Positions 1 through 17,876 of a stretch of DNA of 64,000 nt are shown one piece after another. The translations under genes and the position numbers were made by a program. Under the pieces are notes generated by a model that did no database searches, was not told the origin of the DNA, and worked only from the letters and a program-made list of their open reading frames with translations. Each line of letters begins with the position of its first letter. Position 1 is the first letter of the stretch. Source of the stretch: a virus. Location: positions 1 through 64,000 of the IMG/VR virus record IMGVR_UViG_3300037070_006409; one strand, 5' to 3'.

Positions 1-1
1 C

Positions 2-112
2 GGCGGTACAGGTGTATGCAACGGCGGGTCGTCTGAGGCCGCCTGCCTCCAGTGCATCGCTGACGGCGGCAACTGCTGCTCGCTTGCGCCGCTCAATCGC
101 CACGCGAGCTAG
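2..112 (+). CDS. C-terminal end of a Cys-rich protein, cut by the window edge
   Basis: An open frame enters from the left edge and ends at TAG 110-112. The 36 visible residues carry five cysteines in a compact pattern (C-N-G-G, C-L-Q-C, G-G-N-C-C), as in small zinc-binding or disulfide-rich proteins. The start lies outside the window, so neither length nor family can be judged. It is followed by a 46-nt gap that contains the promoter of the next gene. Confidence 0.45.
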   Translation, partial: GGTGVCNGGSSEAACLQCIADGGNCCSLAPLNRHAS

Positions 113-145
113 CCGGAGCGGCTCGACGGCACCGGGATCGCCAGC

Positions 146-151
146 TAGACT
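146..151 (+). promoter_or_regulatory. -10 box TAGACT for a leaderless gene
   Basis: TAGACT ends 7 nt before GTG 159. The same hexamer stands 6 nt before the starts at 2815 and 31895. The short distance implies that the mRNA begins at the start codon. No convincing -35 element is seen. Confidence 0.55.
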
Positions 152-158
152 CCGGCGC

Positions 159-338
159 GTGCTGATGCCAAGGCGACTGAGGGAACGCTGGCTGCGGTTT
201 CGCGACGAACACGGCTTCCCGAAGATCACCCCGGTGTCGGAGCTGCATCGCAAGCGCGGCACCCGGCCAGCCACCCCGGAGCAGTTCGAGGCGGTCTGCG
301 CCGCCGAAGGGGTCGGGCCACCCGACGGTGAGGGCTGA
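159..338 (+). CDS. Small basic protein of unknown function
   Basis: A 59-residue protein starting at GTG 159, seven bases after a TAGACT box. ATG 165 is an in-frame alternative. It is rich in Arg and Glu (RRLRERWLRFRDEHGF) with an acidic, Pro-rich end. No family is recognised. The stop TGA overlaps the ATG of the next gene (TGATG), so the two are probably co-translated. A longer open frame extends upstream, but its composition looks non-coding, so the short start was chosen. Confidence 0.55.
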   Translation: MLMPRRLRERWLRFRDEHGFPKITPVSELHRKRGTRPATPEQFEAVCAAEGVGPPDGEG

Positions 339-553
339 TGGGGATCTTCGGACGGCGACGGCGACGCTGCGCGTTCGAGCAGGGTGTTAGCGACGCGCAC
401 CGTAAGCAGCGCGACGACCTGCTTCGGGCGCAAGGTCACCTCGTTGGCGACGACACCGAACCAACCGAGCTGCTCCCAGATGAGCGCATCGCTTATGCCG
501 CGGGTCGGCGTAGCGTCGAAGGGGAGCGGGCGGCCGTCCGCAGCGGTGCATAG
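338..553 (+). CDS. Small hypothetical protein
   Basis: A 71-residue protein coupled by TGATG to the upstream gene. It has an Arg-rich start (GRRRRRC) followed by a hydrophilic, probably helical region with SDAHRKQRDDLL and DERIAYAAGRRS. No domain is recognised. The reading looks protein-like while the other frames here do not. Confidence 0.5.
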   Translation: MGIFGRRRRRCAFEQGVSDAHRKQRDDLLRAQGHLVGDDTEPTELLPDERIAYAAGRRSVEGERAAVRSGA

Positions 554-582
554 GTTTCCGCGCCATTGATGAGGGATGACGC

Positions 583-909
583 TTGATCGTCAAGCGCAAC
601 TCGACCACGCTTGGGATCTATACGCCCAATTGCCACTTGTTCATCTTCCGGCCCTCAAGTGCTCACGGCAACTATTCGGGCTATGGCTTCACGTTGCGCG
701 TCCGGCGCTCCATCTGGCGCCACCTGATGGTGCGCCTGCATTGCCGGTCGAAGTTCAGCCCGCGCGCTCGCACCTATGAAGTCTGCACCTGGCGCTCCAA
801 GAAACCCACGACCGGTCCCCGGAAACGGCGGCGCGAGCGCAACCGCCTCGGCTTCAAGACCTACGCGCGCTTGAAGATCAGCCTTGGCGGCCCCTACCCG
901 CCTGAGTAG
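583..909 (+). CDS. Hypothetical basic protein, TTG start
   Basis: A 108-residue basic protein. The proposed start is TTG 583, because GAGGGA (571-576) lies 6 nt upstream as a ribosome binding site and no ATG or GTG fits. It contains many Arg, Lys and aromatic residues (YGFTLRVRRSIWRHL, KTYARLKISLGG), which could form a small nucleic-acid-binding beta-rich fold. That is inference only. A competing ATG frame at 576 gives a less protein-like product. Confidence 0.45.
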   Translation: MIVKRNSTTLGIYTPNCHLFIFRPSSAHGNYSGYGFTLRVRRSIWRHLMVRLHCRSKFSPRARTYEVCTWRSKKPTTGPRKRRRERNRLGFKTYARLKISLGGPYPPE

Positions 910-913
910 CGGC

Positions 914-919
914 TATAAA
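914..919 (+). promoter_or_regulatory. -10 box TATAAA
   Basis: An AT-rich patch, CTATAAATAGATCTC, in GC-rich DNA ends just before GTG 928. A -10 box at 914-919 leaves 8 nt to the start codon, matching the leaderless pattern seen elsewhere in the window. Confidence 0.5.
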
Positions 920-927
920 TAGATCTC

Positions 928-1296
928 GTGCCCGCCGTCCAGTGTTACTCCTCTCCCCACGAACAGCTCCGGGAGATCGGTATCAAGGCCAAGCGCCAGG
1001 GCGTCAGCTTCGAGGAGTTCTGGACTCGCGCGCTCCGGCCGGGGATCTCGCCCCTCATCACCACGGAGACGGTGCGCACTGTCGAGCCGCCCTCCGGCGC
1101 GATCGTCTGGCCGAAGGATTCGGCTGATCGGGCCAACGTGATGTCTGCGGTGACCAGCTCGGAAGAGATCTGGCGACGGGCCTACGAAGACCTGCCACAG
1201 ACGCCGGGCGAGCGTGCAATGGAAGTGCTCCGGGACATCGCCGTCGAAGAGGCCAGCGGGAGTGAAGACCGGGGCGATGTACCGTTGGCGGCCTAG
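928..1296 (+). CDS. Hypothetical protein
   Basis: A 122-residue protein from GTG 928, apparently leaderless. The N-terminal half is helical and charged (HEQLREIGIKAKRQGVSFEEFWTRA), and the rest is acidic. It has no recognisable catalytic motif. Its stop overlaps the GTG of the following HNH-like gene (TAGTG), so that gene depends on it for translation. Confidence 0.65.
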   Translation: MPAVQCYSSPHEQLREIGIKAKRQGVSFEEFWTRALRPGISPLITTETVRTVEPPSGAIVWPKDSADRANVMSAVTSSEEIWRRAYEDLPQTPGERAMEVLRDIAVEEASGSEDRGDVPLAA

Positions 1297-1790
1297 TGAG
1301 TCGCCCGTCGCCAATCGCTGTAGGAGATCGTTTCGGTCGGCTGGTTGTGCAGTCGCGGGCTGGCTCGATGCAGGGAAACCGAGCGTGGGTCTGCTCCTGC
1401 ACGTGTGGAGGTGCCTTGCGTGTTCCGAGCGCGCGGCTCCGTCAAGGAAAGACTCGGAGCTGCGGCTGCCTGAAGTTGGAGCGCACGCGAGCGATGGGTC
1501 GAGGCACCCGTCGCCACGGGATGACGGATACCCCGACGTGGCGCTCTTGGAAGGCAATGCAGGATCGGTGTGATCGAAAGAGGCACCCCGCCTATGAGCG
1601 ATACGGCGGCCGCGGCATCACCATCTGCGACCGCTGGCGCTCCTTCGAGAACTTCCTCGCCGACCTGGGCGAGCGCCCGGAAGGCAAGACCCTTGATCGC
1701 ATCGACCCCGACGGCAACTACGAGCCGAGCAACTGCCGATGGGCGACGTGGGAGGAGCAGAACGCTCCTGGGCATCGGAGTCAGCGATGA
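1296..1790 (+). CDS. HNH-like phage endonuclease with N-terminal zinc ribbon
   Basis: A 164-residue protein from GTG 1296. The N-terminus has a paired-Cys ribbon (CSCTCGG, then SCGCLKLE). The C-terminal half carries a block that I know from free-standing phage endonucleases: a W-x-x-M-x-x-R-C segment, YGGRGITICDRW, then LDRIDPDGNYEPSNCRWAT. The family is often annotated as an HNH or AP2-type homing endonuclease; catalysis is inferred. It sits between two unrelated genes, with TAGTG coupling upstream and ATGA coupling downstream, as for other homing genes in this window. Confidence 0.7.
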   Translation: MSRPSPIAVGDRFGRLVVQSRAGSMQGNRAWVCSCTCGGALRVPSARLRQGKTRSCGCLKLERTRAMGRGTRRHGMTDTPTWRSWKAMQDRCDRKRHPAYERYGGRGITICDRWRSFENFLADLGERPEGKTLDRIDPDGNYEPSNCRWATWEEQNAPGHRSQR

Positions 1791-2671
1791 CCTCTCTGTT
1801 TCACCTAGAGCCGGTGCGCGAGAAAGAGGAGTTCACCAAGCCAGGAACCGCCAACGTGAGTGTCGATGACCGCAAGAAGTTGGCCGGGTTGCTGAAGCAC
1901 TACCGCGCCCAGGCGCACCCCTTCACGGCGTGCAAGAGGGACCAGCTTCGCCACGGCCTCTCTGAGGATCACGCGAATCGTCGCTGTGCGGTATTGAAGG
2001 ATTTGCTGGAAGGCACCACCAAATGGCGGAAGGGCAGCAAAAGCAAATCCGTCGAGGAAGCCATGGGGGTCATTTGCGAGGCCCTCGACGTGGTACAGCT
2101 CGCTGCCACCGGCCTCGGCCCCCGAACGATGTCGGCACTCCTTCGCGAGGAGGTGCAGGAGGGCGTGACCGATGAGTGGGCCGAAGAGCTGCGCATCGCC
2201 GCTGCCCTGGTCGAGGCCGCGCCCCGGTGGATGCTCCCGGTCGCAGCACGACGCCAGGGCTTCCGTCCTCTCAAACCGGAAAAGAGGAAGGGCACTGGCG
2301 GCGGCAGCTTCGCCGAGACGAAACACCGCCGCGCTCCGAAAGGCACCGCGCTCGGCGGTCAGTTCATCCGCATGGGTTCGAGCGGCACCGAGGTCGCCGC
2401 CATCCAGCGCCGGCTCAGTGTCTCCGAGACCGGCACCGTCAACAAACAGACGAAGCGAGCGATCGAAGCCTTCCAGAAACGGAAGGGCATTCAGGTGGAC
2501 GGGGTGATCGGGACCCAGACCGTCTCTGCCCTTCGCGGCACAAACTCCGGGGTGGCCCCTGGTGCGTTGACTCGCAACGATCGCCGCTACCTCCGCCGCT
2601 ACACCCGCCGCACCTCGCCCTCGGGCAGCTCGCGCCGGTCTTCGTCTGCTCGCCGCTCCGTCACGCGATGA
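1787..2671 (+). CDS. Virion-associated protein with peptidoglycan-binding domain
   Basis: A 294-residue protein. ATG 1787 overlaps the preceding stop (ATGA). The N-terminal two thirds are not recognised but are helical. Residues about 205-260 match a PG_binding_1-type repeat: M-G-S-S-G-T-E-V-x-x-I-Q-R-R-L, then T-K-R-A-I-E-A-F-Q, then D-G-V-I-G. The tail is Arg/Ser-rich and probably disordered. The domain binds cell wall glycan in lysins and virion proteins. Its place at the head of the structural cluster suggests a virion or lysis-associated role. No hydrolase domain is visible. Confidence 0.6.
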   Translation: MTSLFHLEPVREKEEFTKPGTANVSVDDRKKLAGLLKHYRAQAHPFTACKRDQLRHGLSEDHANRRCAVLKDLLEGTTKWRKGSKSKSVEEAMGVICEALDVVQLAATGLGPRTMSALLREEVQEGVTDEWAEELRIAAALVEAAPRWMLPVAARRQGFRPLKPEKRKGTGGGSFAETKHRRAPKGTALGGQFIRMGSSGTEVAAIQRRLSVSETGTVNKQTKRAIEAFQKRKGIQVDGVIGTQTVSALRGTNSGVAPGALTRNDRRYLRRYTRRTSPSGSSRRSSSARRSVTR

Positions 2672-2805
2672 TCCCAGATGGCCCGATCACCCAGATCGTT
2701 CTCGGGATCATCGCCGCTGTGATCGTCATCGCCTCGCCGTGGTGGCAACGCGAGTGGCGGGGACTCGTGGAAGACTGGCGCCGCTACCGCGAAGGGCGCC
2801 AGTAG
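2668..2805 (+). CDS. Small single-pass membrane protein
   Basis: A 45-residue protein whose ATG 2668 overlaps the previous stop (ATGA). Residues about 8-25 form one hydrophobic helix (IVLGIIAAVIVIA), followed by a Trp/Arg-rich amphipathic tail (WWQREWRGLVEDWRRY). It could be a small holin-like or anchoring protein, but its location away from the lysis genes argues against a firm call. Confidence 0.55.
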   Translation: MIPDGPITQIVLGIIAAVIVIASPWWQREWRGLVEDWRRYREGRQ

Positions 2806-2808
2806 ACT
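2803..2808 (+). promoter_or_regulatory. -10 box TAGACT for a leaderless gene
   Basis: TAGACT ends 6 nt before ATG 2815 and overlaps the stop codon of the preceding gene. There is no Shine-Dalgarno sequence between the box and the start, which supports leaderless initiation. Confidence 0.6.
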
Positions 2809-2814
2809 GCTGCT

Positions 2815-3018
2815 ATGGCACTTAGTAAAGAGGAGAAGCTGGAGGCGATCGCGGCGAGGCGAGGCCCGCTGCTCCACGAACAGTACGCGGCCGAACTCGA
2901 CGTGAAGGTCGCCGAGGAGGGCGGGATCGAGGCCCTCATGGAGGAGCCGAAAGCGCGCTTGGCACGGGTCAACTCCCAGCTCGGTGTGCTCGATGAGGAG
3001 GAATCGAACCTCGACTAG
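2815..3018 (+). CDS. Small acidic helical protein
   Basis: A 67-residue protein starting six bases after a TAGACT box. It is almost entirely charged helix (KEEKLEAIAARR, then EPKARLARVNSQL), so a short coiled coil is likely. Unknown function. Confidence 0.6.
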   Translation: MALSKEEKLEAIAARRGPLLHEQYAAELDVKVAEEGGIEALMEEPKARLARVNSQLGVLDEEESNLD

Positions 3019-3021
3019 CGC

Positions 3022-3027
3022 TAGGCT
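3022..3027 (+). promoter_or_regulatory. -10 box TAGGCT
   Basis: TAGGCT ends 9 nt before ATG 3037, with no ribosome binding site between. The same hexamer occurs upstream of 52615 and in the leaders at 50369 and 59106. Confidence 0.45.
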
Positions 3028-3036
3028 GCCTGCCTA

Positions 3037-3507
3037 ATGCTGCTCGATCAGATCGCCGACCTCGACCGCCTCGTCAAGGAGCGCTACGGCGTCCTGGTCG
3101 CCGAGTTCGATGGCTACGAGCGGGACCTGCTCCCCGACTTCCGCGAGTACGACGGGGTGCGGCTCTCCAAGGTCGGCATCACCTGCACCCCCGACGGCGT
3201 GCTCAAGGCGAAGACCTACGGCGAGGGCGAGGAACCGCCGAGCCTGGGACCCGAGGACGCCGACGCGCTCAGGCCCTTCGGTGAGCCGGCCGGCGATCTG
3301 GCGGGTCTCGCGCAGGATCTCGTCGTCTGCCTCATCGAGTCGATGCGGGCGCAGATCGCCGAGGTCGCCAACGGCCGACCGCCGACGATCTGCTTCCTCG
3401 CGAACTACGAGATGCCCTCGGTCCACTGGAAGACGCCGCCCGACGTTGCCGAAGAGCACGGGCGCGGCGTCATCAAGATGCGCCACGTCTTCGCCGTCCG
3501 GCCCTAG
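3037..3507 (+). CDS. Hypothetical protein of the head region
   Basis: A 156-residue acidic protein with helical ends (LDQIADLDRLVKERYG and LAGLAQDLVVCLIESMRAQIAEV). No motif is recognised. The TAGGCT box before ATG 3037 and the TAAGCT box after its stop make it a single-gene transcription unit. Confidence 0.6.
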   Translation: MLLDQIADLDRLVKERYGVLVAEFDGYERDLLPDFREYDGVRLSKVGITCTPDGVLKAKTYGEGEEPPSLGPEDADALRPFGEPAGDLAGLAQDLVVCLIESMRAQIAEVANGRPPTICFLANYEMPSVHWKTPPDVAEEHGRGVIKMRHVFAVRP

Positions 3508-3533
3508 CGGCGGGAGCGTCTTCGGCATCGGGG

Positions 3534-3539
3534 TAAGCT
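3534..3539 (+). promoter_or_regulatory. -10 box TAAGCT for a leaderless gene
   Basis: TAAGCT ends exactly 7 nt before GTG 3547. No Shine-Dalgarno sequence lies between. Confidence 0.55.
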
Positions 3540-3546
3540 GCTCGAC

Positions 3547-4701
3547 GTGAGTCTCTTCGGTCACCACGACGACCCGCCTCGCTCGGAGCGGCTAAGCGAG
3601 AACTTCACCGGCAAGGGCCAGCGCGTCCGGGTCGCCGTGGTCGAACGAGACAATGGCCTCGTCTCCGCCACCTCGCAGTCGATCTCGAACGCGCTCTGGG
3701 ACCTCGCCGACTCGCGCTCCCTGACCCACACCGTCCTGCTGCCCCACGGCACCGCGGTGAAGCTCGCCGCCGCGCCGGCCCCGATGGGTTCCCACCGCGC
3801 CCGCTTCGAGATCACCAACCCGGTGCTCAAGGAAAACAAGCGCGTCGAAGCGGTCGGCACCTCGGGTGCCGCCGACCTCGCCAATCAGATCGACGTGCTC
3901 GCCATGAGCAAGGGCGACAAGGACGCACTGGCGAAGGTCACCGAGGAATGGGAGCGGGGCGGCCGCATCCAGGAGGCCAAGGTCAACGTCTCCGGCTACG
4001 TCACTCGCGGCGGGAAGCATGTGGGCGCCTACTCCCAGGTCCGCAAGCTGGTTGCTTCGCTGAAAAGCGGTCACTCGTTGCGGTTGCCGGACGGCATCAA
4101 GGTGAGCAGGAAGGAGGCTGGCTTCCAGGTTCACGACGCCGGAGGCAATCGCCACGGAGGCGCCGCGCTTGCGGACCCCTCCTCGGCCACCACCCAGGCC
4201 CTCAACGCCTCTGCATCATCGACCCATCCGAAGTCAATCGGAGGCACCAAGTCACATGCGAAAGATGTTGGCTTCATGGGCGCCAAAGAGATCGACGCCA
4301 TTCCGACCGATCGCCGTCGTGCAGACGAGGCTAGAAAGCGTCGGCAGAGGGACGAGTCGCCGATGCCCGGCGTCATCCGCCGGCCGAGCGAATCCGATGA
4401 AATCAGAGCGCGTGGAGGAAAGAGTCAGGCGAATGACCCAAAGGTCGGGCAGCGCTATCGGGATCAAGACGGCGCTATCTTCGATGTCGTCCAGGTGCAA
4501 GGCAATGGCGATGCCTATGTGCGACCACCGCATCAGAAGAAAGGCGGGATCCTCACAAAGCGGGCTTTGTTCGATAAGTGGGAGCTGGTCACAAAAGACA
4601 GCAAGCGCAGGGGCGGTGCAGCAGTCAATATTGACCGCGAGAAGCGGAAGCGCAGGAAGAAGCTCGGTGAGGCAGCACCCCCCGGCTTCATCGGCCGCTG
4701 A
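3547..4701 (+). CDS. Putative head-associated structural protein
   Basis: A 384-residue protein from GTG 3547, leaderless. Residues about 160-180 read GYVTRGGKHVGAYSQ, resembling the short G-Y-x-R-x-x-G-K-x-V-x-x-Y motif seen in many phage structural proteins. The C-terminal third is basic and includes a KGGILTKRALFDKWELV segment. It lies directly upstream of the prohead protease, where portal or head-associated minor proteins are usual. It lacks anything I can identify as a portal. Function is inferred from position only. Confidence 0.55.
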   Translation: MSLFGHHDDPPRSERLSENFTGKGQRVRVAVVERDNGLVSATSQSISNALWDLADSRSLTHTVLLPHGTAVKLAAAPAPMGSHRARFEITNPVLKENKRVEAVGTSGAADLANQIDVLAMSKGDKDALAKVTEEWERGGRIQEAKVNVSGYVTRGGKHVGAYSQVRKLVASLKSGHSLRLPDGIKVSRKEAGFQVHDAGGNRHGGAALADPSSATTQALNASASSTHPKSIGGTKSHAKDVGFMGAKEIDAIPTDRRRADEARKRRQRDESPMPGVIRRPSESDEIRARGGKSQANDPKVGQRYRDQDGAIFDVVQVQGNGDAYVRPPHQKKGGILTKRALFDKWELVTKDSKRRGGAAVNIDREKRKRRKKLGEAAPPGFIGR

Positions 4702-4702
4702 C

Positions 4703-4730
4703 GGTTTCCCTCTCCGCGCTCGGTTACTCT
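4703..4730 (+). promoter_or_regulatory. Promoter, GGTTTC-N16-TANNCT class, copy 1
   Basis: GGTTTC at 4703-4708, a 16-nt spacer, then TACTCT at 4725-4730, followed after 7 nt by GTG 4738. The same -35, spacer length and -10 form recur at 5478, 17849 and 33979. This makes it a phage promoter class rather than chance. Confidence 0.7.
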
Positions 4731-4737
4731 CGCCCGC

Positions 4738-6264
4738 GTGAAGAAGTGCCCGCACTGCGACAAGCAGGTCACCCCGAAGGATGACACCTGCCCTGAGTGC
4801 GGCAAGGAGATGAAGGTCTCCGAGGAGGCGGAGGGCGCGTTGATCCAGCCTGGCAATCTCGATCTCCTGGTCGAGGCCGCCGAGGTCATCGTCCCGAAAC
4901 GAGGCAAGCTCTTCGAGGAGCGGGTGATTGAGGGCGGCCACAAGGTGAAGGTCGCCCGCTTCGCGATCATCCGCCCGTGCCAGTCCAAAGGCCGGCGCAT
5001 CGGTGGGCACGCCCCGATCTATGAGCCGCGAATGCTGGCCGAGAACGCTTCCGTCTTCACCGGCTGGCCGATGTACCTCGACCACATGAGCGAGGAGCTG
5101 GCCGAGGCCTTCGCCGCCTTCCTCCAGGAGCGCGGCCGCTCGATGAAGGACCTGGGCGGGCGCGTTCTCAAATCCTTCTACGACCCCGAGGTCTCGATGG
5201 AGTCCGACGAGGAGAACGGTTACCGCAAGGGCGCCGTCGTCGGCGAGATCATCCCCCAGAAGATCGTCCGCGAGATGCTCGAAGAGGATCCCTTCGCTCT
5301 CGCCGTCTCGATCAACGCCTGGCCGAAGGGCGCTCGCGTCGGGACCGCCTCGTGGGACTCGTCAGTCAAAGGCGCGGTCATCGAGGGCATCCGCTCGAAG
5401 CCGATGGGTAGCGTCGATTTCGTTCCCCGTGGTGGTGCCGGCGGCCGGCTCCTCAGCGAGGAGGAGATTCGCTCGGCGGTTTCACTTTTGGAGTCGGCCT
5501 ACACTGCTGCGCGTGATGACGAGCAGCCCGATCGCAAGGAGCGCCCGGTGAAGAAAAAGCTGTCGGAGATGAGCGGCGAGGAAGTCGCAGCGCTGACCTC
5601 GGACCAACTCCAGGAGGCGCTCCGCGAGGAGAACCCCGACCTGGCTGAGCAGATCCAGATCGACGGCGGCGAAGGCCCGGCCCGCGAGGGCGATGCCACC
5701 AAGCCACTCACTCAGGCGGACCTCGATTCTGCGCTCAACGAGCAGCGCGAAGCCCTGGTCGAGGAGTTCGGCGACAGCAAGAAGGCCGCCGAGGAAATGG
5801 CCGAGGAATTGGTCGAAGAGCGCGAGCAGCTTCGCAGCCTCGCCGACCTGGCGGCCGAAAAGATCGGCGAGGCCCAGCGCAACGGGCTGCCGAAGGCTTA
5901 CGCGGACGAGATCCGCAAGAACTACCTGCTGCTCCCGTCAGGCCCGCGCGCCGGCCTCCAGGTCGAAGAGCGCGAGGACGAGGAGAGCGGCAAGACCCTC
6001 AAGGTCGAGGAGGTGCTCGAAGAGCAGATCCGCGCCGACGTGGAAACCGCTGTCCGTCTCATCGAGGCGGCAGGCGGGGAACCGCGGGTGAAGGGCCTCG
6101 GCCCGACCGGCAAGACCGAAGAGGTCGAGGAAGGCAAAAAGGCCGAGCGGCGCAAGGCCCTGCGCGAGGGCAGCGCCTTCACCGACTTCCTCGGCGAGTC
6201 CGGCGACCTGACCGGCGACGCCGAGAAGGACGACAAGCGAGTCCGCGAGATGGTGGAGGGCTAA
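4738..6264 (+). CDS. Prohead protease-scaffold fusion
   Basis: A 508-residue protein from leaderless GTG 4738. It opens with a zinc ribbon (CPHC, then CPEC, residues 4-21). Residues about 60-240 resemble capsid maturation proteases of actinophages (TGWPMYLDHM, then DLGGRVLKSFYD, then PMGSVDFVPRGGAGG). His in LDHM and Ser in GSVDF are candidate catalytic residues by analogy; this is not proven. From about residue 270 the chain becomes highly charged, helical and acidic (EEMAEELVEEREQL), which is typical of scaffolds. Such proteins cleave and then leave the procapsid. An internal promoter and start (5478-5548) indicate that the scaffold is also made alone. Confidence 0.75.
   Translation: MKKCPHCDKQVTPKDDTCPECGKEMKVSEEAEGALIQPGNLDLLVEAAEVIVPKRGKLFEERVIEGGHKVKVARFAIIRPCQSKGRRIGGHAPIYEPRMLAENASVFTGWPMYLDHMSEELAEAFAAFLQERGRSMKDLGGRVLKSFYDPEVSMESDEENGYRKGAVVGEIIPQKIVREMLEEDPFALAVSINAWPKGARVGTASWDSSVKGAVIEGIRSKPMGSVDFVPRGGAGGRLLSEEEIRSAVSLLESAYTAARDDEQPDRKERPVKKKLSEMSGEEVAALTSDQLQEALREENPDLAEQIQIDGGEGPAREGDATKPLTQADLDSALNEQREALVEEFGDSKKAAEEMAEELVEEREQLRSLADLAAEKIGEAQRNGLPKAYADEIRKNYLLLPSGPRAGLQVEEREDEESGKTLKVEEVLEEQIRADVETAVRLIEAAGGEPRVKGLGPTGKTEEVEEGKKAERRKALREGSAFTDFLGESGDLTGDAEKDDKRVREMVEG
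5478..5505 (+). promoter_or_regulatory. Internal promoter, GGTTTC-N16-TANNCT class, copy 2
   Basis: GGTTTC 5478-5483, 16-nt spacer, TACACT 5500-5505, inside the protease-scaffold gene. Eighteen bases (GCGGTTTCACTTTTGGAG) are identical to the promoter before the sheath operon at 17847. The match is too long for chance within a coding region. It should fire a transcript that begins at GTG 5513 and serves the nested scaffold. Confidence 0.75.
5513..5551 (+). CDS. 12-residue leaderless leader peptide before nested scaffold
   Basis: GTG 5513 lies exactly 7 nt after TACACT, the standard leaderless spacing in this phage. The frame (+1 relative to the protease) gives a 12-residue peptide (MMTSSPIARSAR) ending in TGA 5549-5551. 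That stop overlaps the in-frame scaffold start GTG 5548 as GTGA. It probably loads ribosomes that then re-initiate at the scaffold start. Confidence 0.45.
   Translation: MMTSSPIARSAR
5548..6264 (+). CDS. Nested scaffold protein (internal start in protease gene)
   Basis: In-frame GTG 5548 (residue 271 of the fusion) has AAGGAG at 5536-5541, a 6-nt spacing, and a dedicated promoter at 5478-5505. The product would be 238 residues: KKKLSEMSGEEV, then long acidic coiled-coil stretches, ending in a charged tail. The arrangement matches lambda C/Nu3, where the scaffold is the separately expressed C-terminal part of the protease gene. The product acts inside the procapsid and would be removed at maturation. 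Confidence 0.65.
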   Translation: MKKKLSEMSGEEVAALTSDQLQEALREENPDLAEQIQIDGGEGPAREGDATKPLTQADLDSALNEQREALVEEFGDSKKAAEEMAEELVEEREQLRSLADLAAEKIGEAQRNGLPKAYADEIRKNYLLLPSGPRAGLQVEEREDEESGKTLKVEEVLEEQIRADVETAVRLIEAAGGEPRVKGLGPTGKTEEVEEGKKAERRKALREGSAFTDFLGESGDLTGDAEKDDKRVREMVEG

Positions 6265-6267
6265 GCG

Positions 6268-7029
6268 ATGCCATACGACGCACCAGGCAAGCGAGTCGAA
6301 GTCATCTACGACGGCGGCTCCGACGGCAAAACGCCGCTCCCCACCAACACCTTCGCGGTGGTGGACAACAAGGTCCTCCTCCTCGCCAAGACCTCTCAGC
6401 TCGGACGCTACGTCGATCCCACCTCCGACGAAGCGATCGAGATCCAGCCGGATGAGCTGTGCGTCGGTTTCCAGGGCGGCGTGCACGAGCTGGCGCTGTC
6501 GGGTGCTCTCGCCACGGCCTCCCGTGGCGACAAGCTCTGGATCGACTCGGCCGACAACTCGGTCCTGCGCGCAAGCGGCGGCGGCACGGGCGGCTCAGAC
6601 GCCGACGAGGTGCAAACGCTGAAAGTCGAGGCGACTGGCGGCACCTTCACGCTGGCCTGGGAAGGCCAGAAAACGAGCAAAATCAAATGGAACGCCTCGG
6701 CCGCCGAAGTCCAGGCTGCGCTTGAGGCGCTCGAAAACATCAATCCCGGCGACGTGACCGTGACCGGTGGCCCCGGCGACGAAAAAGGCACGAAACTCTA
6801 CGAAGTCACCTTCGGCGGCCGCTACGAAAACACGGACGTGGCGGAACTGACCGCCGAAGACGAACTGACCGGCGACGCCGAAAAAGTCACCGTCGCGACC
6901 AAAACGGCTGGCGCCGGCAGCTCCGACGTGGCGATGCCGCTCGGAGTCATAGACGAGATCGACGCAACCCGCACCCCCCACATGGCCCGAGTCAACACCG
7001 ACGCCTGGCAGGCGTTCATCACTTCCTAG
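6268..7029 (+). CDS. Head decoration-type protein with inserted beta-domain
   Basis: A 253-residue protein. The first 110 residues resemble small head-stabilising proteins of the DUF2190 type placed before the capsid gene (LAKTSQLGRYVDP, GGVHELALSG). A Gly-rich linker leads into a separate module at about 112-210 (EVQTLKVEATGGTFTLAWEG, then AAEVQAALEALENINPGDVT, then TGGPG). This module is widely reused in phage and bacterial surface proteins. The original fold seems to resume at VAMPLGVIDEIDATRTPHMA. The likely role is capsid decoration. An AGGG-type ribosome site precedes ATG 6268. Confidence 0.6.
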   Translation: MPYDAPGKRVEVIYDGGSDGKTPLPTNTFAVVDNKVLLLAKTSQLGRYVDPTSDEAIEIQPDELCVGFQGGVHELALSGALATASRGDKLWIDSADNSVLRASGGGTGGSDADEVQTLKVEATGGTFTLAWEGQKTSKIKWNASAAEVQAALEALENINPGDVTVTGGPGDEKGTKLYEVTFGGRYENTDVAELTAEDELTGDAEKVTVATKTAGAGSSDVAMPLGVIDEIDATRTPHMARVNTDAWQAFITS

Positions 7030-7047
7030 GAGGAGGACCGACCAGCG

Positions 7048-8154
7048 ATGGCAAGAAAGCGCGGCCGATACGGGGAGTGGGGCAAGCACCTCGACCTTTT
7101 CGATGTCTTCGAGGACTTCCGGGACGACCCGGCGATCGCCGAGATGCTGCTCGGCGAGGACGCCGGAGATCTCCAGGAGACCTACGGTGCGCCCGAGGGC
7201 CGGGTGGACTTCCCGATCTTCCTCCAGACCGTCATCCGCCACCGCATCCGCGAGCGCTTCCGCGGCGTCGCCTCACGCTGGGATCAGTACCTCGGCTTCG
7301 AGAACGCCCAGGACTTCCGCGAGCACACGGTCTCCCAGCTCGGCTCGATCCGCGGCTTCGAGGGGATCGAGGAGCACGGCGAGTACCCGCGGCTCCGCAG
7401 CTCCGAGGAAGGCGGCCCGTCCTTTGCCGTCGGCAAGTACGGCGGCATCTACGGGGTGACCTTCGAGCTGGTCATCAACGACGAGATGGACCGCATCCTC
7501 AACCGCATCCCGATGGAGCTGGGGAAGTCGATGGCCGAGTATGTCGCGAAGGCGATGGTCGCGCTGGTCGAGTCCAACCCGACCTATTCGCCCGACGGCA
7601 ACCCCTTCTTCTCCGCGGGACGGGAAAACCTCGTCACGGGCGAAGCCGCCGACATCACCGAGGACAACATCATGGCGATCCTCGACACGATGAGCCTGCG
7701 GCGCGACGGCGACGACATCCCGATCTCGGTCGAGGCCGCGAAGATCCTCGTGCGCGAGCCTTCGGCCAAGGCCAAGATCATGCGGATGATCCGCTCGACC
7801 CAGACCGGCGTCACGGTGGACGCGGACGAAACCGGCCGCGACTTCTACCCCGGCCGCGACAACCCGCTGCGGGGCATCCTGCCCGAAGACGCGGTGATCG
7901 TGGAGCCGTGGCTCAACGTCCCGGACGACTACTACATCCTCGCCAACGCTCAGGACCGGCCGGCCTTCCTCGCCGCCTTCCTGCGCAACCGCCGCGACCC
8001 GCACATCTTCCTCAAGGACCCCGGCATGAAGGGCATCGGCGGGGGCAGCTCCGACCCCTACGAGATGGACTTTGACGAGGTGCCCTTCAAGGTCCGCCAC
8101 GTCTTCGGTGGCGCGGTCGGAGAGCCGGTCGCAGCCGTCAAGGCCCAGCCCTAA
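7048..8154 (+). CDS. Major capsid protein, Mu gpT-like
   Basis: A 368-residue protein in the canonical place after protease, scaffold and decoration genes. It shows the gpT-type signature: GKYGGIYGVTFELVINDEMD, then MGLELGKS-like, then ALVESNPTYSPDGNPFFS, and a C-terminal beta strand region (EVPFKVRHVFGG). An AGGAGGA ribosome site lies at 7029-7035. It should form the shell hexamers and pentamers (HK97 fold). The family assignment is from motif memory. Confidence 0.8.
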   Translation: MARKRGRYGEWGKHLDLFDVFEDFRDDPAIAEMLLGEDAGDLQETYGAPEGRVDFPIFLQTVIRHRIRERFRGVASRWDQYLGFENAQDFREHTVSQLGSIRGFEGIEEHGEYPRLRSSEEGGPSFAVGKYGGIYGVTFELVINDEMDRILNRIPMELGKSMAEYVAKAMVALVESNPTYSPDGNPFFSAGRENLVTGEAADITEDNIMAILDTMSLRRDGDDIPISVEAAKILVREPSAKAKIMRMIRSTQTGVTVDADETGRDFYPGRDNPLRGILPEDAVIVEPWLNVPDDYYILANAQDRPAFLAAFLRNRRDPHIFLKDPGMKGIGGGSSDPYEMDFDEVPFKVRHVFGGAVGEPVAAVKAQP

Positions 8155-8170
8155 AAGGAGGCTTCACCGC

Positions 8171-9271
8171 ATGGCTCCAGCCGTAGGACTCCAGCCACTT
8201 CGAGTCGGCCCCGAAGACGTTGAGGCGTCTGAGGCAGGCGAACTCGTCAAGGGCGTCGGTGTTCATCACCACGCGAAGGGGCTGATCCACGCGGTCTCCA
8301 AGCAGATCCCGAGGGAGCTGCGCACGGCCATGCAGCGCTTCGAGTACCGCGAGCGCTCGAAACACCTAGACGAGGACGAGGTGCTCTACCAGGCAAGGGC
8401 GACCGTGGATCCCGAGGGCAAGGGCGTCATCGAGCGCGTGCTCTCGGCGCGGGTCAAGGGATCCAAGACGAACCCCTATGACGGCGCCGTTGTCGTGCTC
8501 TACGAAGCGCCCGCTGGCCGCACCGCGCGCTGCGCCGTGCTCTACAACCCCGACACCTTCCCGCGCTCAGTCGCGGCCTTCGACCAGGCCCTACGCGAAG
8601 GCAAGATCGAGCTGCCCGGTGAGCTGGGCGACCGCGCCGACCTCCGCGCCGCGCTGGAGAGCGCCCGCGAGGAGGTCTCACGCCTCGCTCGCGAGAACGC
8701 CGAGCTGAAAGACGGCGACGGCGAGGCCGGCGTCGATGCCGCCCTCGCCAGTGCCGCTGCCGAGGATCAGCCGCAGGGCGTTGCCCCAGAGGACATCCCC
8801 GAGGACGTGACGCCTGGCGAGACGCCGGGCTGGCCCATCGTCAACGGCATCGTGCTCGACCTGCCCGAAGAGGTCCGCGAGAAGCTGGCCGAGGCCGAGC
8901 TGGCACCGCCTTCCGCCGCGCCGCTCACCGAGGACGATCTCCCCGAGGGTGTCGCTCCCGGTGATCCCGGCTGGCCGGTGGACGAGGAGAGCGGCGAGCT
9001 GCTCGACCTGCCCGACTCGGTGCGCCAGCAGCTCATCGACGCCGCTGAGGAGGCCGAAGTCGCCGAGCCGGAGGATGAGGTCGATCTCAACGAGGTCGAT
9101 CTGCCCGAGGGCAACGCCGACTCGATCATCGCGATGGTGCCCTTCCTCTACAACGACGTGCTCAAGGCCCTGACCTTGCGTGACGAGCGCTCGACTGTCC
9201 GCAAGGCAGCGGCCGAGGAGCTGGCCGAGCGCCAGATCGAGCTGCCCGAGGGCGCCAACGTCGAGGCATAG
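8171..9271 (+). CDS. Head protein with acidic tandem repeat
   Basis: A 366-residue protein from ATG 8171, with AAAGGAGG immediately after the capsid stop. The first 170 residues are mixed alpha/beta (HAKGLIHAVSKQIPRELRTAM, VVVLYEAPAG). Two degenerate copies of a roughly 45-residue acidic unit follow (PGWPIVNGIVLDLPEEVREKL and PGWPVDEESGELLDLPDSVR). The end is a helical segment. It is likely a virion head or head-completion component judged by position. A longer upstream reading overlaps the capsid gene and was rejected. Confidence 0.6.
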   Translation: MAPAVGLQPLRVGPEDVEASEAGELVKGVGVHHHAKGLIHAVSKQIPRELRTAMQRFEYRERSKHLDEDEVLYQARATVDPEGKGVIERVLSARVKGSKTNPYDGAVVVLYEAPAGRTARCAVLYNPDTFPRSVAAFDQALREGKIELPGELGDRADLRAALESAREEVSRLARENAELKDGDGEAGVDAALASAAAEDQPQGVAPEDIPEDVTPGETPGWPIVNGIVLDLPEEVREKLAEAELAPPSAAPLTEDDLPEGVAPGDPGWPVDEESGELLDLPDSVRQQLIDAAEEAEVAEPEDEVDLNEVDLPEGNADSIIAMVPFLYNDVLKALTLRDERSTVRKAAAEELAERQIELPEGANVEA

Positions 9272-9285
9272 GCAGGGGGCAGCGA

Positions 9286-9771
9286 GTGCCCAACCTGGCT
9301 ATCCGCAAGCTCGCCGACCAGGACGCCGATCGAGTCAAGCTCTTCGACCCGTTCACGGGTCAGTCGCTGCTCTATGAGCCTGCCGACGCTGAGGTGCTGT
9401 CCTCACAGCTCCGTGAGGCGCTCTCCGGCTTCGAGACCAGTCCCCGGCCCCTGCTCGGCATCACCGTCGAAGGTGAGACGCCGCAGGAAACCAAGCTCGG
9501 GGAACGGTTCATAGCCAACGGCCGCGCCGAGGGCTGGATCGAGGTCGAGGGCGAAGAGATCGTCCACCGCTCCTCGGGGCCGCCCGAGAACCCGTGGGGA
9601 ACGCCGGCCCACACCTTCGTCCACCTCGACACGATCATCCTCAAGACCGTCGATGGGGATGTGCGCTACACCGTCACCGAGAACCCCGACAAGTGGCCGG
9701 AGGAGAAAGACGGCGAGGCGGGCTTCGGGGGCGAGGTCCGCTGGTACTACGAGGTCGAGCTGGAGAGCTGA
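9286..9771 (+). CDS. Hypothetical structural protein
   Basis: A 161-residue protein from GTG 9286. Beta-rich sequence with a C-terminal part that reads like a small jelly-roll (HTFVHLDTIILKTVDGDVRYTV, GGEVRWYYEVELES). Its TGA overlaps the ATG of the next small gene. Probably a virion protein by context; no family recognised. Confidence 0.6.
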   Translation: MPNLAIRKLADQDADRVKLFDPFTGQSLLYEPADAEVLSSQLREALSGFETSPRPLLGITVEGETPQETKLGERFIANGRAEGWIEVEGEEIVHRSSGPPENPWGTPAHTFVHLDTIILKTVDGDVRYTVTENPDKWPEEKDGEAGFGGEVRWYYEVELES

Positions 9772-9899
9772 TGGCGACGATGACCATCACCAAGCTGGAC
9801 GTGACCACCCAGCCGGGGATGCGCCCGCCGATCGTCAAGGCGTTGGTGAACGGCCGCTGGCGCAAGCTCCCGTGCACCGTGGAGGCGAAGCGTGGCTGA
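9771..9899 (+). CDS. 42-residue basic protein
   Basis: A short gene: ATG 9771 shares the A of the preceding TGA, and it ends at TGA 9897-9899. The product is 42 residues and strongly basic in its second half (NGRWRKLPCTVEAKRG). It overlaps the GTG start (9892) of the next gene by 8 nt, which supports its reality as a link in the translational chain. Unknown function. Confidence 0.5.
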   Translation: MATMTITKLDVTTQPGMRPPIVKALVNGRWRKLPCTVEAKRG

Positions 9900-10365
9900 T
9901 CTCGTCTTCAATCGCAGCAAGGGCCGCGGCACCGAGTTCGGTGAGCGGGTCAACGGCAACGACCCGGCCAATGCCGCCTTTATCGTCGCTCTGCTGGCCG
10001 AGACCGGCATTGAGTCCGACGCCACGCTGAGGGACAAGGACGACTTCGCCGCCATCGCCTCGGGCGCCACCGACTTCGCCACGAACACCGGGGCCTCGCG
10101 CAAGACGCTCACCGACACGAGCGGCGTGACGATCACCTACGACGACACCGCCGATCGCACCGAAGTGGACATCCCAGATCAGACCTGGACCGCGGTCGCT
10201 GCTGACGGCACCGGGAAAGTCTCCGATGTCGTAATCGGCTACGACTCCGACAGCACGGCGGGCACGGACGCCAACGTCCTGCCCGTGACCCTCCACGACT
10301 TCACGGTCACGCCGGACGGCAGCGACGTAACCGCGCAGATCGCGGGCTTCTACGGAGCAAGCTAG
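9892..10365 (+). CDS. Putative virion protein
   Basis: A 157-residue protein from GTG 9892. The acidic, Thr/Asp-rich, beta-type composition in the second half (SGVTITYDDTADRTEVDIPDQ) resembles small tail or head-fibre proteins. No family is recognised. It precedes a repeat-bearing surface protein. Confidence 0.6.
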   Translation: MADLVFNRSKGRGTEFGERVNGNDPANAAFIVALLAETGIESDATLRDKDDFAAIASGATDFATNTGASRKTLTDTSGVTITYDDTADRTEVDIPDQTWTAVAADGTGKVSDVVIGYDSDSTAGTDANVLPVTLHDFTVTPDGSDVTAQIAGFYGAS

Positions 10366-10380
10366 AGCGAGGGAGGGCTG

Positions 10381-12141
10381 ATGCTCTTCCCGCTCTGGGC
10401 CGCCCCCACTAACGCCCCGTCGAAAACGGCCGAACGGTTCCTTTCACCGGAAGGGGTGATGGGCTGGAGCGCGTCGAACATAACCGGGCGGTTTCCCGTC
10501 CCGCCGGGAGGGGGCACCCTTCGCAAACTTGAGATCGCATTCTTCAAAGCACCCGGCTTCGGCAAGTCGTGGACGGTTTCCTATTACGTCAATGGAGTCG
10601 AGGACATATCGACCAGGGTCGTAATCAAAGATTTCGAAACGAAAGGGAAATGGGAGGGCGAACGCAAACTTAAAGCCGGCGACACGTTCCATATGCTCTT
10701 GGTGCCCTCCGGTGAACCTGAAGTGCCGGGGGTGGGAGAAGAAGGCGCTGCCTTTTACACCTGGGTCGAAACGGTAGGCAACACCTTCTGGATCGGCGGC
10801 GGCGGCTCCGGCAATGCCCTGACTGGAGAAGCGTCCTACAACCCGCCCTACGGGATCAACAGCGCCGGATGGCAGGCGACCGAGGGCCTCAACCGGATCA
10901 TCGTGCCGGGCAAATTCAAACTCAAGGGCGTCGCCTTTGACGCGAGCGGCTCTGCGGGATCAGGCAAGAGCTATACGCAGTACGCTCGCATCAACCGCTC
11001 TGAAGACACCCTGCCGGTCAAAATCGAAGGGACCTCGGAGACCTCAAAGCTTGCCGAAGGCTCGGTGCAGCTCAAAGCCGGCGACACCATAGAGGCCAAG
11101 CTGGTTCCATCCGGCACTCCGACGGCCCGATCGATTCGCTACTGCTACCTGGTCGAATCTGAAGCGAGCGGCGAAATGTTCGCTGGCGGAACCGTGGAAG
11201 CCGCCGAGTCGAGCAACCTCCTCGTCAGGTACGGCTGGCCCGACACCTGGAAGGCCACTTGGGGGACGACCAGCGCTCACCTGCCTCGTCCGGTGGGGCT
11301 GAAATTCGAACGGCTGTATGTCGAGATAGGGACGGCGCCAGACGTGGGGAAATCCCGCATCTACGAGCACCTGAAGCTGCCTTTCACCGCCACGGGGCTG
11401 AAAGTCAAAATCGAAGGCGCCGCGACAAGCGGCAACGATACGACGCATTCTTTTGTCACCGATGGCGAACGAATGACGATGAGTTCGACGCCGTCTGGCA
11501 CCCCGGCCGAAAATACCGGCGGGGTGCACTGGGGCTTCGTCGTCATCGTCCCTCAGCCATTCTTCGCCGCGCTCGGGAAAGCCTCAGAGGCAGATACGGC
11601 AGGCAAAGTCGCTCGCCAGAAGAGCCGCGCGCTCGGGAAAACCTCGGAGACGGATGCAAGCCGACCGCTCGTCAGGGCCAAGGTCAGGATGCTCGGCGTG
11701 GTCTTCGAGGTCGATGTAGCTCGACCGATCACGAAGCTCAAGGCCCGACCCCTCGGCCAGGCCACGGAGACCGAGCAGGCGCGTCCTATTGACAAGCTCA
11801 AGGCCCGACCCCTCGGCCAGGCCAACGAGACCGAGCAGGCGGAAGCAGTCGCCTCGTTCAAGACCCTGCCTATCGGCCCGACCTCCGAGACCGATTCGGC
11901 ATCACCAATCCCCACCGCGAAGAGCCGCGGGCTGGGGCAGGCCCTGGAGACCTCCGTGGCCTACCCGATCGAAGCCCTCCACGGCGGGCTGCTCGGCCAG
12001 GCCTTCGAGACCAACTTCGCCTTCCCGATCATGCTGCGGGTTGGGCACGGCGGCACCGCTGCTCTGGCGGAGGAATCTGTGGGCGGGGCTATCGTGGTGG
12101 ACGAACCTATGGGCGGCGCAACGCTAAGCGAGGAACCGTGA
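10381..12141 (+). CDS. Virion surface protein with jelly-roll-like domains and eight 20-residue repeats
   Basis: A 586-residue protein from ATG 10381. Residues 1-395 show repeated beta-rich blocks with the same internal signature (FxLKAGDTFHMLLVPSGEP, VQLKAGDTIEAKLVPSGTP, and a third with SSTPSGTP), so probably three related sandwich domains. Residues 398-557 are eight consecutive 20-residue repeats (LGxAxETxxAxPIxxxKxRP). The end is Gly-rich. Its position suggests an exposed decoration or host-binding protein. The stop overlaps the GTG of the connector gene. The function is inference; the repeats are directly visible. Confidence 0.65.
   Translation: MLFPLWAAPTNAPSKTAERFLSPEGVMGWSASNITGRFPVPPGGGTLRKLEIAFFKAPGFGKSWTVSYYVNGVEDISTRVVIKDFETKGKWEGERKLKAGDTFHMLLVPSGEPEVPGVGEEGAAFYTWVETVGNTFWIGGGGSGNALTGEASYNPPYGINSAGWQATEGLNRIIVPGKFKLKGVAFDASGSAGSGKSYTQYARINRSEDTLPVKIEGTSETSKLAEGSVQLKAGDTIEAKLVPSGTPTARSIRYCYLVESEASGEMFAGGTVEAAESSNLLVRYGWPDTWKATWGTTSAHLPRPVGLKFERLYVEIGTAPDVGKSRIYEHLKLPFTATGLKVKIEGAATSGNDTTHSFVTDGERMTMSSTPSGTPAENTGGVHWGFVVIVPQPFFAALGKASEADTAGKVARQKSRALGKTSETDASRPLVRAKVRMLGVVFEVDVARPITKLKARPLGQATETEQARPIDKLKARPLGQANETEQAEAVASFKTLPIGPTSETDSASPIPTAKSRGLGQALETSVAYPIEALHGGLLGQAFETNFAFPIMLRVGHGGTAALAEESVGGAIVVDEPMGGATLSEEP
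11572..12051 (+). repeat. Eight tandem 60-bp coding repeats
   Basis: A strict 60-nt period begins at 11572 (CTCGGG, CTCGGC or similar every 60 nt to 11992). Units 4 and 5 share a long identical stretch at 11738-11822. Protein units follow LG-x-A-x-E-T-x-x-A-x-P-I-x-x-x-K-x-R-P. The near-identical central copies point to recent copy-number change by unequal recombination. Confidence 0.85.
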
Positions 12142-14087: not shown

Positions 14088-14088
14088 G

Positions 14089-14661
14089 GTGCCGTCACGT
14101 GAGGAGGCTCGTCGGCTACGCGCCAAGGGCCTTCTGCATCGCGAAATCGCGAAACGACTCGGGGTGCATAGCTCGACGGTCTCGCGGTGGCTCAACGGTC
14201 GGAAGCCAGTGCCAGCCGGTAGCTCGACGCCATCGGCTCGCAAGGTCACCGAGACGCGCCGCGCTAACGGTCTCTGCCCTCGGTGCGGTCAGACCCCGGC
14301 ACCGGGGCGGGTGACGTGCGAGGCCTGTCTGGGGATTGACCGGGAGAAAGCCCGCGCCGCTCGTCGCCGGCTGGTCGCTGAGGTGATCGCCGCATATGGT
14401 GGAGAGTGCGTCTGCTGCGGCGAGAGCGAGCCGATGTTTCTCACCGTGGATCACCCGAACGACGACGGCGCGGATCACCGCCGCGAGCTGGGGATGGCGC
14501 GAGATCGCGGGCAGTCGGCTGGTAGCCACTTCTACATGTGGTTGAAGCGCGAAGGATTCCCGGCCAGGTTCCGGCTGCTGTGCTTCAACTGCAACTCAGG
14601 GCGTCATCGGAACGGCGGGTTGTGCCCGCACCAGCGTAAGCGGCTACGGGCGGTGGCCTAG
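14089..14661 (+). CDS. HNH homing-type endonuclease with N-terminal HTH
   Basis: A 190-residue protein from GTG 14089, one base after the connector stop. Residues 1-45 are a helix-turn-helix (EIAKRLGVHSSTVSRWLNGR). A CxxC zinc ribbon follows (CPRCGQTPAPG, then CEAC). The nuclease part has CVCCGE, LTVDHPNDDGADHRRE, FYMWLKREGFP and LLCFNCN, a family of phage HNH enzymes with CxxC and DH catalytic region. It is probably a selfish gene parked between connector and head-closure genes. Confidence 0.8.
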   Translation: MPSREEARRLRAKGLLHREIAKRLGVHSSTVSRWLNGRKPVPAGSSTPSARKVTETRRANGLCPRCGQTPAPGRVTCEACLGIDREKARAARRRLVAEVIAAYGGECVCCGESEPMFLTVDHPNDDGADHRRELGMARDRGQSAGSHFYMWLKREGFPARFRLLCFNCNSGRHRNGGLCPHQRKRLRAVA

Positions 14662-15107
14662 TGCCTTTGGGCGATGTCACCGTCCACACCGCGACTCCGA
14701 TCCTCACCACGACCAGCGAGGACGAAGACACCTGGGTCGAGGGCGAGCCTGACGAGACGACCAGCTTCGGCGTCGTCTTCGACTGCTTCTACATGCACGG
14801 CCGGGGTGCCACTGAGCAGCCAGCGGTGCCGCGGGGCCGGCGCAAGGTCGAGGGGCCGACGATCATCTACGAGTCCGAACGCGACGATGGCTCGATCGTC
14901 CAGCTCGTCGCTGAGGACGAAGTGGTGATCGACCCCGGCGATGATGAGGGCATCTGGGCTGTGCTCGGGGGCGAAGGCCAGACGGTGAAAGTCGGCAACG
15001 AGGAGATCCCCGGTGTCCGCTTCCAGGTAGACGGTGACCCCGAACCCTTCCAACCACCCGGCGAAGTGCTGGGCTTCCAGGCTCGGCTCAAGCGGGTGGT
15101 GGATTGA
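14661..15107 (+). CDS. Head-closure or neck protein
   Basis: A 148-residue protein from GTG 14661 (TAGTG overlap with the HNH gene). Predominantly beta with acidic turns (SFGVVFDCFYMHGRG, VVIDPGDDEGIWAVLGGEG, VRFQVDGDPEPFQPP). Size, position after the connector and beta character fit a head-closure protein. The last residues LKRVVD and the underlying DNA recur exactly at the end of the next gene. Confidence 0.55.
   Translation: MPLGDVTVHTATPILTTTSEDEDTWVEGEPDETTSFGVVFDCFYMHGRGATEQPAVPRGRRKVEGPTIIYESERDDGSIVQLVAEDEVVIDPGDDEGIWAVLGGEGQTVKVGNEEIPGVRFQVDGDPEPFQPPGEVLGFQARLKRVVD
15085..15103 (+). repeat. 19-bp direct repeat, left copy
   Basis: GGCTCAAGCGGGTGGTGGA at the 3' end of the head-closure gene. 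It is identical to 15474-15492 at the 3' end of the following gene. The two copies bracket one complete gene, 389 bp apart. Confidence 0.85.
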
Positions 15108-17848: not shown

Positions 17849-17876
17849 GGTTTCACTTTTGGAGCTGGCCTATTCT
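17849..17876 (+). promoter_or_regulatory. Promoter, GGTTTC-N16-TANNCT class, copy 3
   Basis: GGTTTC 17849-17854, 16-nt spacer, TATTCT 17871-17876, then 9 nt to ATG 17886. The 18 bases at 17847-17864 are identical to those at the internal scaffold promoter. It drives the tail operon starting with the 133-residue gene and the sheath. Confidence 0.75.

Follow-up and report, generated by a model that had tools for sequence, protein, structure and literature searches.

The stretch of viral DNA analysed here, called the window below, covers positions 1 to 64,000 of IMG/VR record IMGVR_UViG_3300037070_006409, which is 78,872 bases long. Upstream of its major capsid gene lies a gene whose product is probably a fused protease-scaffold protein of 508 amino acids (aa). 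Inside this gene stands a promoter-like site, P2, closely followed by an in-frame start codon from which the scaffold part alone could be translated. We consider it likely that P2 is an intragenic late promoter and belongs to a late set composed of GGTTTC or GGTATC, 16 nucleotides (nt) and TAnnCT. The features of the locus are as follows, ORF standing for open reading frame.

4703-4730, plus strand: P1, GGTTTC-N16-TACTCT, in the gap that separates the preceding gene (stop at 4701) from the protease gene; 7 nt past the second hexamer comes GTG 4738
4738-6264, plus strand: protease-scaffold gene, 508 aa, start GTG, upstream of the major capsid gene
5478-5505, plus strand: P2, GGTTTC-N16-TACACT, nested, within the low-confidence linker between protease and scaffold
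5513-5551, plus strand: short out-of-frame ORF, 12 codons from GTG 5513 and 11 from ATG 5516; its TGA (5549-5551) overlaps the scaffold GTG
5536-5541, plus strand: AAGGAG, Shine-Dalgarno-like, 6 nt ahead of GTG 5548-5550
5548-6264, plus strand: nested scaffold ORF, in frame with the start at 4738, 238 aa, start GTG
6268-7029, plus strand: 253-aa ORF between the scaffold and the major capsid gene; it would lie within the P2 transcript
7048-8154, plus strand: major capsid protein (PF25209, 96.2 bits); it would lie within the P2 transcript

A first-pass annotation of the window had described this arrangement as a promoter inside the protease gene, a leaderless out-of-frame peptide serving as a translational relay, and a nested scaffold start. 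The letters are exactly as it gave them: GGTTTC (5478-5483) is followed after 16 nt by TACACT (5500-5505) and after a further 7 nt by GTG 5513, with ATG at 5516, and the short ORF, its TGA, AAGGAG and GTG 5548 can all be read directly. Translation agrees that GTG 5548 is in frame with 4738 and opens a product of 238 residues.

The product of 4738-6264 matched no head protease family and no scaffold family in Pfam or PHROGs, its main match there being a weak zinc ribbon at the N-terminus. An AlphaFold2 model built with 11 relatives, with a mean predicted local distance difference test score (pLDDT) of 68.5, shows an alpha/beta domain at about residues 57-230, a linker at 232-271 with pLDDT below 50, a long helix at 326-381 and a helical C-terminal part. 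Residues 44-231 of the model aligned in VIA-align with the T4 gp21 prohead protease (5jbl_A) at Z 10.0 and a root-mean-square deviation of 3.9 over 137 aligned residues, and the rows after it, among the matches listed, had Z 5.5 and below. The herpesvirus proteases pUL26N (4cx8) and that of Kaposi's sarcoma-associated herpesvirus (2pbk) both scored Z 4.1, a level that unrelated chains reach too. The lambda gpC protease belongs to the S49, ClpP-like class; no ClpP-like chain was among the matches listed (50 VIA-align rows), and a ClpP/S49 fold is still conceivable for the domain. The assignment is made by structure on the strength of the VIA-align match, since Foldseek by itself gave no match to the model at E values up to 0.001; the relatives' sequence profile matched no PDB chain. 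H116 and S191, which we take to be the catalytic residues, are invariant across the 11 relatives, consistent with a His/Ser protease. As judged from the model, the reading of 4738-6264 as a protease gene is well supported, and the place of the gene and its helical build suggest that the C-terminal half is the scaffold. A search for the 508-aa protein in named phages gave no match, as did one for the tail sheath, and the capsid, RecA and terminase matches were too distant to indicate a host.

The zinc ribbon occupies window positions 4738-4810. By eye, L085 has a similar CxxC...CxxC stretch (G and L numbers designate the records and contigs compared). No N-terminal zinc ribbon was seen in G002-G004, and L043 and L045 have, in its place, a C2H2-like stretch within the scaffold part.

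Recurrence and conservation of the motif

The relatives set consisted of 16 records, window included, with 684,813 bases in total. It represents 14 distinct phages, because the gene of G005 is the same as that of G004, and that of L044/G007 the same as that of L043/G010. L024, L027 and L028, which are AT-richer contigs with translations unlike the protease-scaffold gene, were left out of the counts. Written as GGTWTS-N16-TANNCT, the motif occurs 42 times in 15 of the 16 records, exclusively on the strand that encodes the protease, with 0 matches on the opposite strand and 0 for a reversed-pattern control on both strands. The likely coding ORFs picked in G000 lie on the protease-gene strand as well in 72 of 74 cases.

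The effect of loosening the pattern was followed in four phages (169,357 bases). Here GGTWTS-N16-TANNCT matched 13 times against 0 in the reversed control, and every match has an ATG or GTG 6-10 nt further on. With up to one mismatch in GGTTTC the counts were 13 against 1, and 13 against 0 when a start codon was added; with two mismatches and a start codon they were 16 against 1. When the spacer was set to 15 or 17 and a start codon required, there were 0 matches. A scan of IMG/VR viral contigs for GGTTTCACTTTTGGAGTC returned four contigs, all of them relatives with the protease-scaffold gene, and in each of five records a search allowing three mismatches found the nested copy plus one more copy 8-12 kb downstream. 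An 18-mer scan of bacterial genome contigs gave five matches in unrelated phyla, whose titles led us to regard them as chance.

Outside the protease gene, the motif stands at a narrow range of distances from start codons. The first 35 of the 42 matches comprise 9 nested and 26 non-nested sites, three of the latter being duplicates, which leaves 23 distinct sites. At all 23 an ORF of at least 57 codons starts 6-15 nt past the second hexamer (20/23 at 6-9 nt), and four additional non-nested sites have an ATG at 6-8 nt that opens at least 113 codons. Combined, 27/27 lie 6-15 nt and 24/27 lie 6-9 nt from an ORF start, as compared with 12% and 5%, respectively, of random window positions before such a start. 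An equivalent of P1 precedes the protease start in nine of the 14 phages (the window, G001-G004 and G008-G011); G006, G012, G014 and G015 gave no match there, and G013 has a variant ending in TATCAT. For G004 (L005:2582-4042, minus strand), the position of the P1 site suggests that the protease starts at the GTG giving 487 aa and not at the start of the longer ORF.

The nested site is found in exact form at the homologous place in 11 of the 14 phages (the window, G001-G004, G006, G008, G009 and G013-G015), which supports the proposed promoter within the protease coding sequence. The motif was already defined when three of these phages, G013-G015, came to light, and the site is homologously placed in 3/3. 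When the 23 non-nested sites were turned into a matrix, the nested site came top on the coding strand in 13/14 genes, with scores of 12.9-27.7 against 5.1 or less for the second-best position; the gene of G012 failed.

Codon choice within the site is also conserved. The proteins of G002, G003 and G004 are 56-66% identical to that of the window, and 197 alignment columns hold one amino acid in all four. Five of these columns have an identical codon of below 10% usage, and 5/5 lie inside P2 (GTT248, TCA249, CTT250, TTG251 and GCT257); with looser usage limits, 1/6 (below 15%) and 2/8 (below 20%) lie outside it. The hypergeometric value for rare codons in region 247-260 is 3e-7, a figure that applies to a region picked post hoc and ignores common descent. 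In L002, L046 and L048, three of the four shared rare codons (below 15% usage) lie in P2 (GTA, GCA and GAA) and one elsewhere. The identical rare codons show that constraint on the protein cannot be the only cause of the conserved block.

Because of the conservation of the site, its distribution on one strand and the fixed distances in relatives, an internal promoter with a nested scaffold is well supported on comparative grounds. The identity of P2 as a promoter, the place of its RNA start, the scaffold polypeptide and the stoichiometry are predictions from sequence. The motif set as a whole would represent the late promoters of this phage group, giving leaderless or nearly leaderless mRNAs, and the leaderless reading rests on the distances of 6-15 nt between hexamer and start codon.

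The start of the nested scaffold and rival explanations

In the mechanism that we propose, P1 would give a long mRNA for the whole protease-scaffold protein, and P2 a shorter one, starting about 7 nt past TACACT, for the scaffold alone, the 253-aa ORF and the major capsid gene. As a result of the short mRNA, scaffold and capsid protein would outnumber the protease. In the subgroup to which the window belongs, the Shine-Dalgarno-like AAGGAG would start the scaffold at GTG 5548. Ribosomes entering at the 5′ end, on GUG or AUG, would make a peptide of 10-13 codons whose UGA overlaps that GTG, and they may restart there; this relay step is a conjecture.

An in-frame start codon lies no more than 45 nt from the site in all 13 phages with P2 or a variant of it, in agreement with the nested in-frame scaffold start first put forward for the window. 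Its form differs between phages. In G001, G008, G009, G014 and G015, an in-frame ATG stands exactly 9 nt past the hexamer, and the 16 nt ahead of this ATG contain no GGAG, AGGA or GAGG; because of this distance and the lack of Shine-Dalgarno-like letters, a leaderless scaffold mRNA, predicted for these five, fits better than internal initiation. The window and G002-G004 have an out-of-frame codon at the leaderless position, and their in-frame GTG follows the hexamer at 39-45 nt, with GGAG in G002, G003 and G004 at the spacing equivalent to AAGGAG, six bases before the scaffold GTG. The scaffold ATG of G013 is 30 nt past the hexamer, after AAGGAG-N5, those of G010 and G011 are 15 nt past it without a GGAG, AGGA or GAGG site, and G012 also has an in-frame ATG. 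Outside the window and G002-G004, an internal start with a ribosome-binding site is absent in 8/9 of the phages with P2 or a variant, that is, in all but G013.

The relay has a narrower distribution. An ATG 10 nt past the hexamer, an open frame and a TGA overlapping the scaffold GTG occur together in four of the 14 phages (the window, G002, G003 and G004), with short ORFs of 11, 12, 10 and 10 codons, respectively, from the ATG. The GTG 7 nt past the hexamer is present in the window, G002 and G003 and is GAG in G004, the shared codon being ATG 5516. In the relatives, whose alignment had been named as a check, the promoter-like site is thus kept in 11/14 and the scaffold GTG with its overlapping TGA in 4/14, which supports the promoter and leaves the leaderless relay as first described a conjecture: GTG 5513 is found in three of the four phages, and five others use the leaderless codon as the scaffold start itself. 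Under random synonymous recoding, a Shine-Dalgarno-like GGAG or AGGA appeared before GTG 5548 in 63-89% and the open frame in 96-100% of cases, so the parts of the relay, taken singly, are weak evidence. ATG, GTG and open frame arose jointly in 2-5% per phage, values that cannot be multiplied across the four phages because these are related. An RNA structure in the leader was considered and rejected, no unusual fold being seen (z 0.27, -0.24, -0.87 and -0.33).

Several observations weigh against P2 as a late promoter for the scaffold. G010 and G011 keep GGTTTCACTTTTGG, but TACGAT replaces TAnnCT there, and G012 has no promoter-like site. In G006 the scaffold ATG is 42 nt past the hexamer and is not preceded within 16 nt by GGAG, AGGA or GAGG. 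The looser motifs match the reversed control once, and L010, an unrelated bacterial contig among the five returned by the 18-mer scan, fits the full pattern, with no start codon within 17 nt. Plain synonymous identity in P2 is unremarkable (66/83 pairs against 1133/1618 in the rest, other windows being higher); the signal appears only with rare codons, in a region chosen post hoc and uncorrected for common descent. A minus-strand position in the window gene, with TG for TA, scores 20.4 in the matrix, near the 21.9 of P2. Finally, a search of nine records for a sigma-70 region 2 protein, which might read the site, gave no match. The T7-type RNA polymerase family PF00940 also had no match in these nine records, in a scan whose control likewise matched nowhere, and the Pfam matches among 30 of the phage's ORFs, a subset of its genes, were mostly to recombination and packaging functions, with no clear sigma factor. 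The 193-aa protein at L029:13845-14426 (genome positions 77845-78426), which matches HTH_38/HTH_23 and weakly sigma region 4, is a possible late regulator or small terminase and one candidate for the factor that reads the site.

Other explanations of the locus can be set against these data. It is improbable, in our view, that the nested scaffold arises from internal translation initiation on the long mRNA only, with the conserved block serving, for example, as a binding site for a phage protein. AAGGAG-N6-GTG 5548 would function on any mRNA, Mu and PaMx73 have such a start, and the in-frame ATG of G012 manages without a promoter-like site. However, the same block also precedes the start codons of separate genes, at a fixed distance and on one strand, and the nested ATG of five phages, at exactly 9 nt and without Shine-Dalgarno-like letters, speaks more for leaderless mRNA than for internal initiation. 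A chance resemblance of an AT-rich coding patch to a promoter is extremely improbable. Single promoter-like matches are generally common, and the full pattern turned up once in L010, but in its simple form this explanation is refuted by the controls, with 0 matches in 684,813 bases, and by the identical rare codons.

Rather unlikely, as we see it, is that P2 mainly drives the capsid operon, made up of the 253-aa ORF and the gene for the major capsid protein, with the nested scaffold and the short ORF as by-products. Going upstream from the capsid gene at 7048, P2 is the first such site, and as no further GGTWTS-N16-TANNCT match occurs in the window between P2 and 17849, the capsid operon too may be transcribed mainly from P2. 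Against by-products speak the in-frame start codon within 45 nt in 13/13 phages with the site or a variant and, in five of them, a distance equal to that of other leaderless genes; the two roles are compatible. As for the relay, we regard only as a tentative possibility that it is both real and needed, with leaderless initiation at GUG/AUG 5513/5516, a short peptide, UGA 5549-5551 and re-initiation at GTG 5548. In its favour, the ATG, the open frame and the TGA/GTG overlap are kept in 4/4 subgroup phages despite the varying length of the short ORF, and the joint frequency under recoding is low, which is only suggestive among kin. On the other side, these four related phages are its only carriers, G013 has AAGGAG-N5-ATG as the scaffold start behind the same promoter and no relay, the GTG is replaced by GAG in G004, and the leader lacks unusual RNA structure.

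Further promoter-like sites and genes of the phage

Besides P1 and P2, the window carries two sites of the same type and two weaker ones, the last of those listed being detected with two mismatches allowed.

17849-17876, plus strand: P3, GGTTTC-N16-TATTCT, intergenic, 9 nt ahead of ATG 17886 of a 133-aa ORF
33979-34006, plus strand: P4, GGTTTC-N16-TAGTCT, 3 and 9 nt ahead of GTG 34010/34016 of a 233-aa ORF
31861-31888, plus strand: weaker site, GGGATC-N16-TAGACT, 6 nt ahead of GTG 31895 of a tail-fibre-like gene
3000-3027, plus strand: weaker site, GGAATC-N16-TAGGCT, 9 nt ahead of ATG 3037 of a 156-aa ORF

The 14-mer GGTTTCACTTTTGG of P2 is repeated exactly at window positions 17849-17862, before a separate gene, the 133-aa ORF that precedes the tail sheath gene (18284-19783). 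The 233-aa ORF after P4 has no Pfam or PHROG match. A consensus scan for sigma-70 promoters (TTGACA-like -35, TATAAT-like -10, spacer 16-18) gave 0 matches in window positions 1-16000; only the second hexamer of the motif, TAnnCT, is of sigma-70 type, its -35 hexamer being unlike that of sigma-70. Between scaffold and capsid genes, the C-terminal part of the 253-aa ORF product resembles stretches of several tail-protein families.

Elsewhere in the window, a 649-aa ORF (12138-14087) has an intein-like interruption, judged by eye (CVPMDTEALTSKGWRNYGDLCVGDLVLGF ... NIIALTGN). The phage encodes a Ku protein (43605-44636; PF02735, 47.5 bits), and its region also holds RecT (36313), a PD-(D/E)XK nuclease (37311) and RusA (42376). 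L029 encodes RecA (L029:3070-4098) and a 755-aa protein (L029:6453-8720) with a head-protein match and a C-terminal RNA-ligase-family match in PHROGs.

Comparison with known systems

Tailed phages and herpesviruses have a capsid fold, a protease and a scaffold strategy in common. In lambda, the scaffold Nu3 is nested in the protease gene C by translation, as Shaw and Murialdo reportedly described in 1980, and gene I of Mu encodes a protease. For Mu I/Z and PaMx73, the accessible portions of the sources describe a nested scaffold produced by an internal translational start. The locus resembles all three systems in that its protease gene contains a predicted nested in-frame scaffold; it differs from Mu I/Z and PaMx73 in having a promoter-like site before the nested start, whereas no scaffold promoter is mentioned in those portions.

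A closer parallel comes from herpes simplex virus 1, where the promoter of the scaffold gene UL26.5 lies inside the protease coding region of UL26, the scaffold is nested in frame and the two mRNAs are 3′-coterminal (PMC2949831). The phage locus likewise has a protease gene with a predicted nested in-frame scaffold, here with a conserved promoter-like site known from its letters. It differs in belonging to a bacterial virus, in the type of promoter, in the leaderless or Shine-Dalgarno-led start and in that the phage scaffold mRNA would continue into the capsid gene. Kinship of the herpesvirus and phage internal promoters is not suggested. The original remark that such an arrangement had not been described stands for phages, in that we found no report in the open-licence literature of a promoter situated within a protease/scaffold gene of a phage, but UL26/UL26.5 is a precedent in herpesviruses. 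The fuller scheme, a dedicated class of leaderless late promoters with one member inside the protease gene as a counterpart of UL26.5, together with a subgroup relay through a peptide of 10-13 residues, is a possibility that we advance with caution.

Parts of this scheme have parallels in bacteria and in Mu. Mycobacteria are described as commonly using leaderless ATG and GTG starts, with short ORFs at 5′ ends (PMC4633059). The likeness is that the predicted 5′ end of the phage mRNA would coincide with the start codon or stand only a few nt away from it. The Mu late promoters lys, I, P and mom are activated by protein C (PMC4461284, in part) and form a similarly small late set, one being named for gene I. 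That portion of the source does not mention a promoter inside gene I.

In the open-licence literature searched, the description of an internal promoter for a nested scaffold was found on the herpesvirus side only. The relatives offer a natural series of nested starts, from leaderless and short-leadered to Shine-Dalgarno-led and relayed, and the motif, with no control match in 685 kb, is specific enough to mark late transcription units in this uncultured phage group. If the reading of P2 as an internal promoter is true, the ratio of scaffold to protease could be set by transcription in phages too, a solution that would have been either inherited or reached twice.

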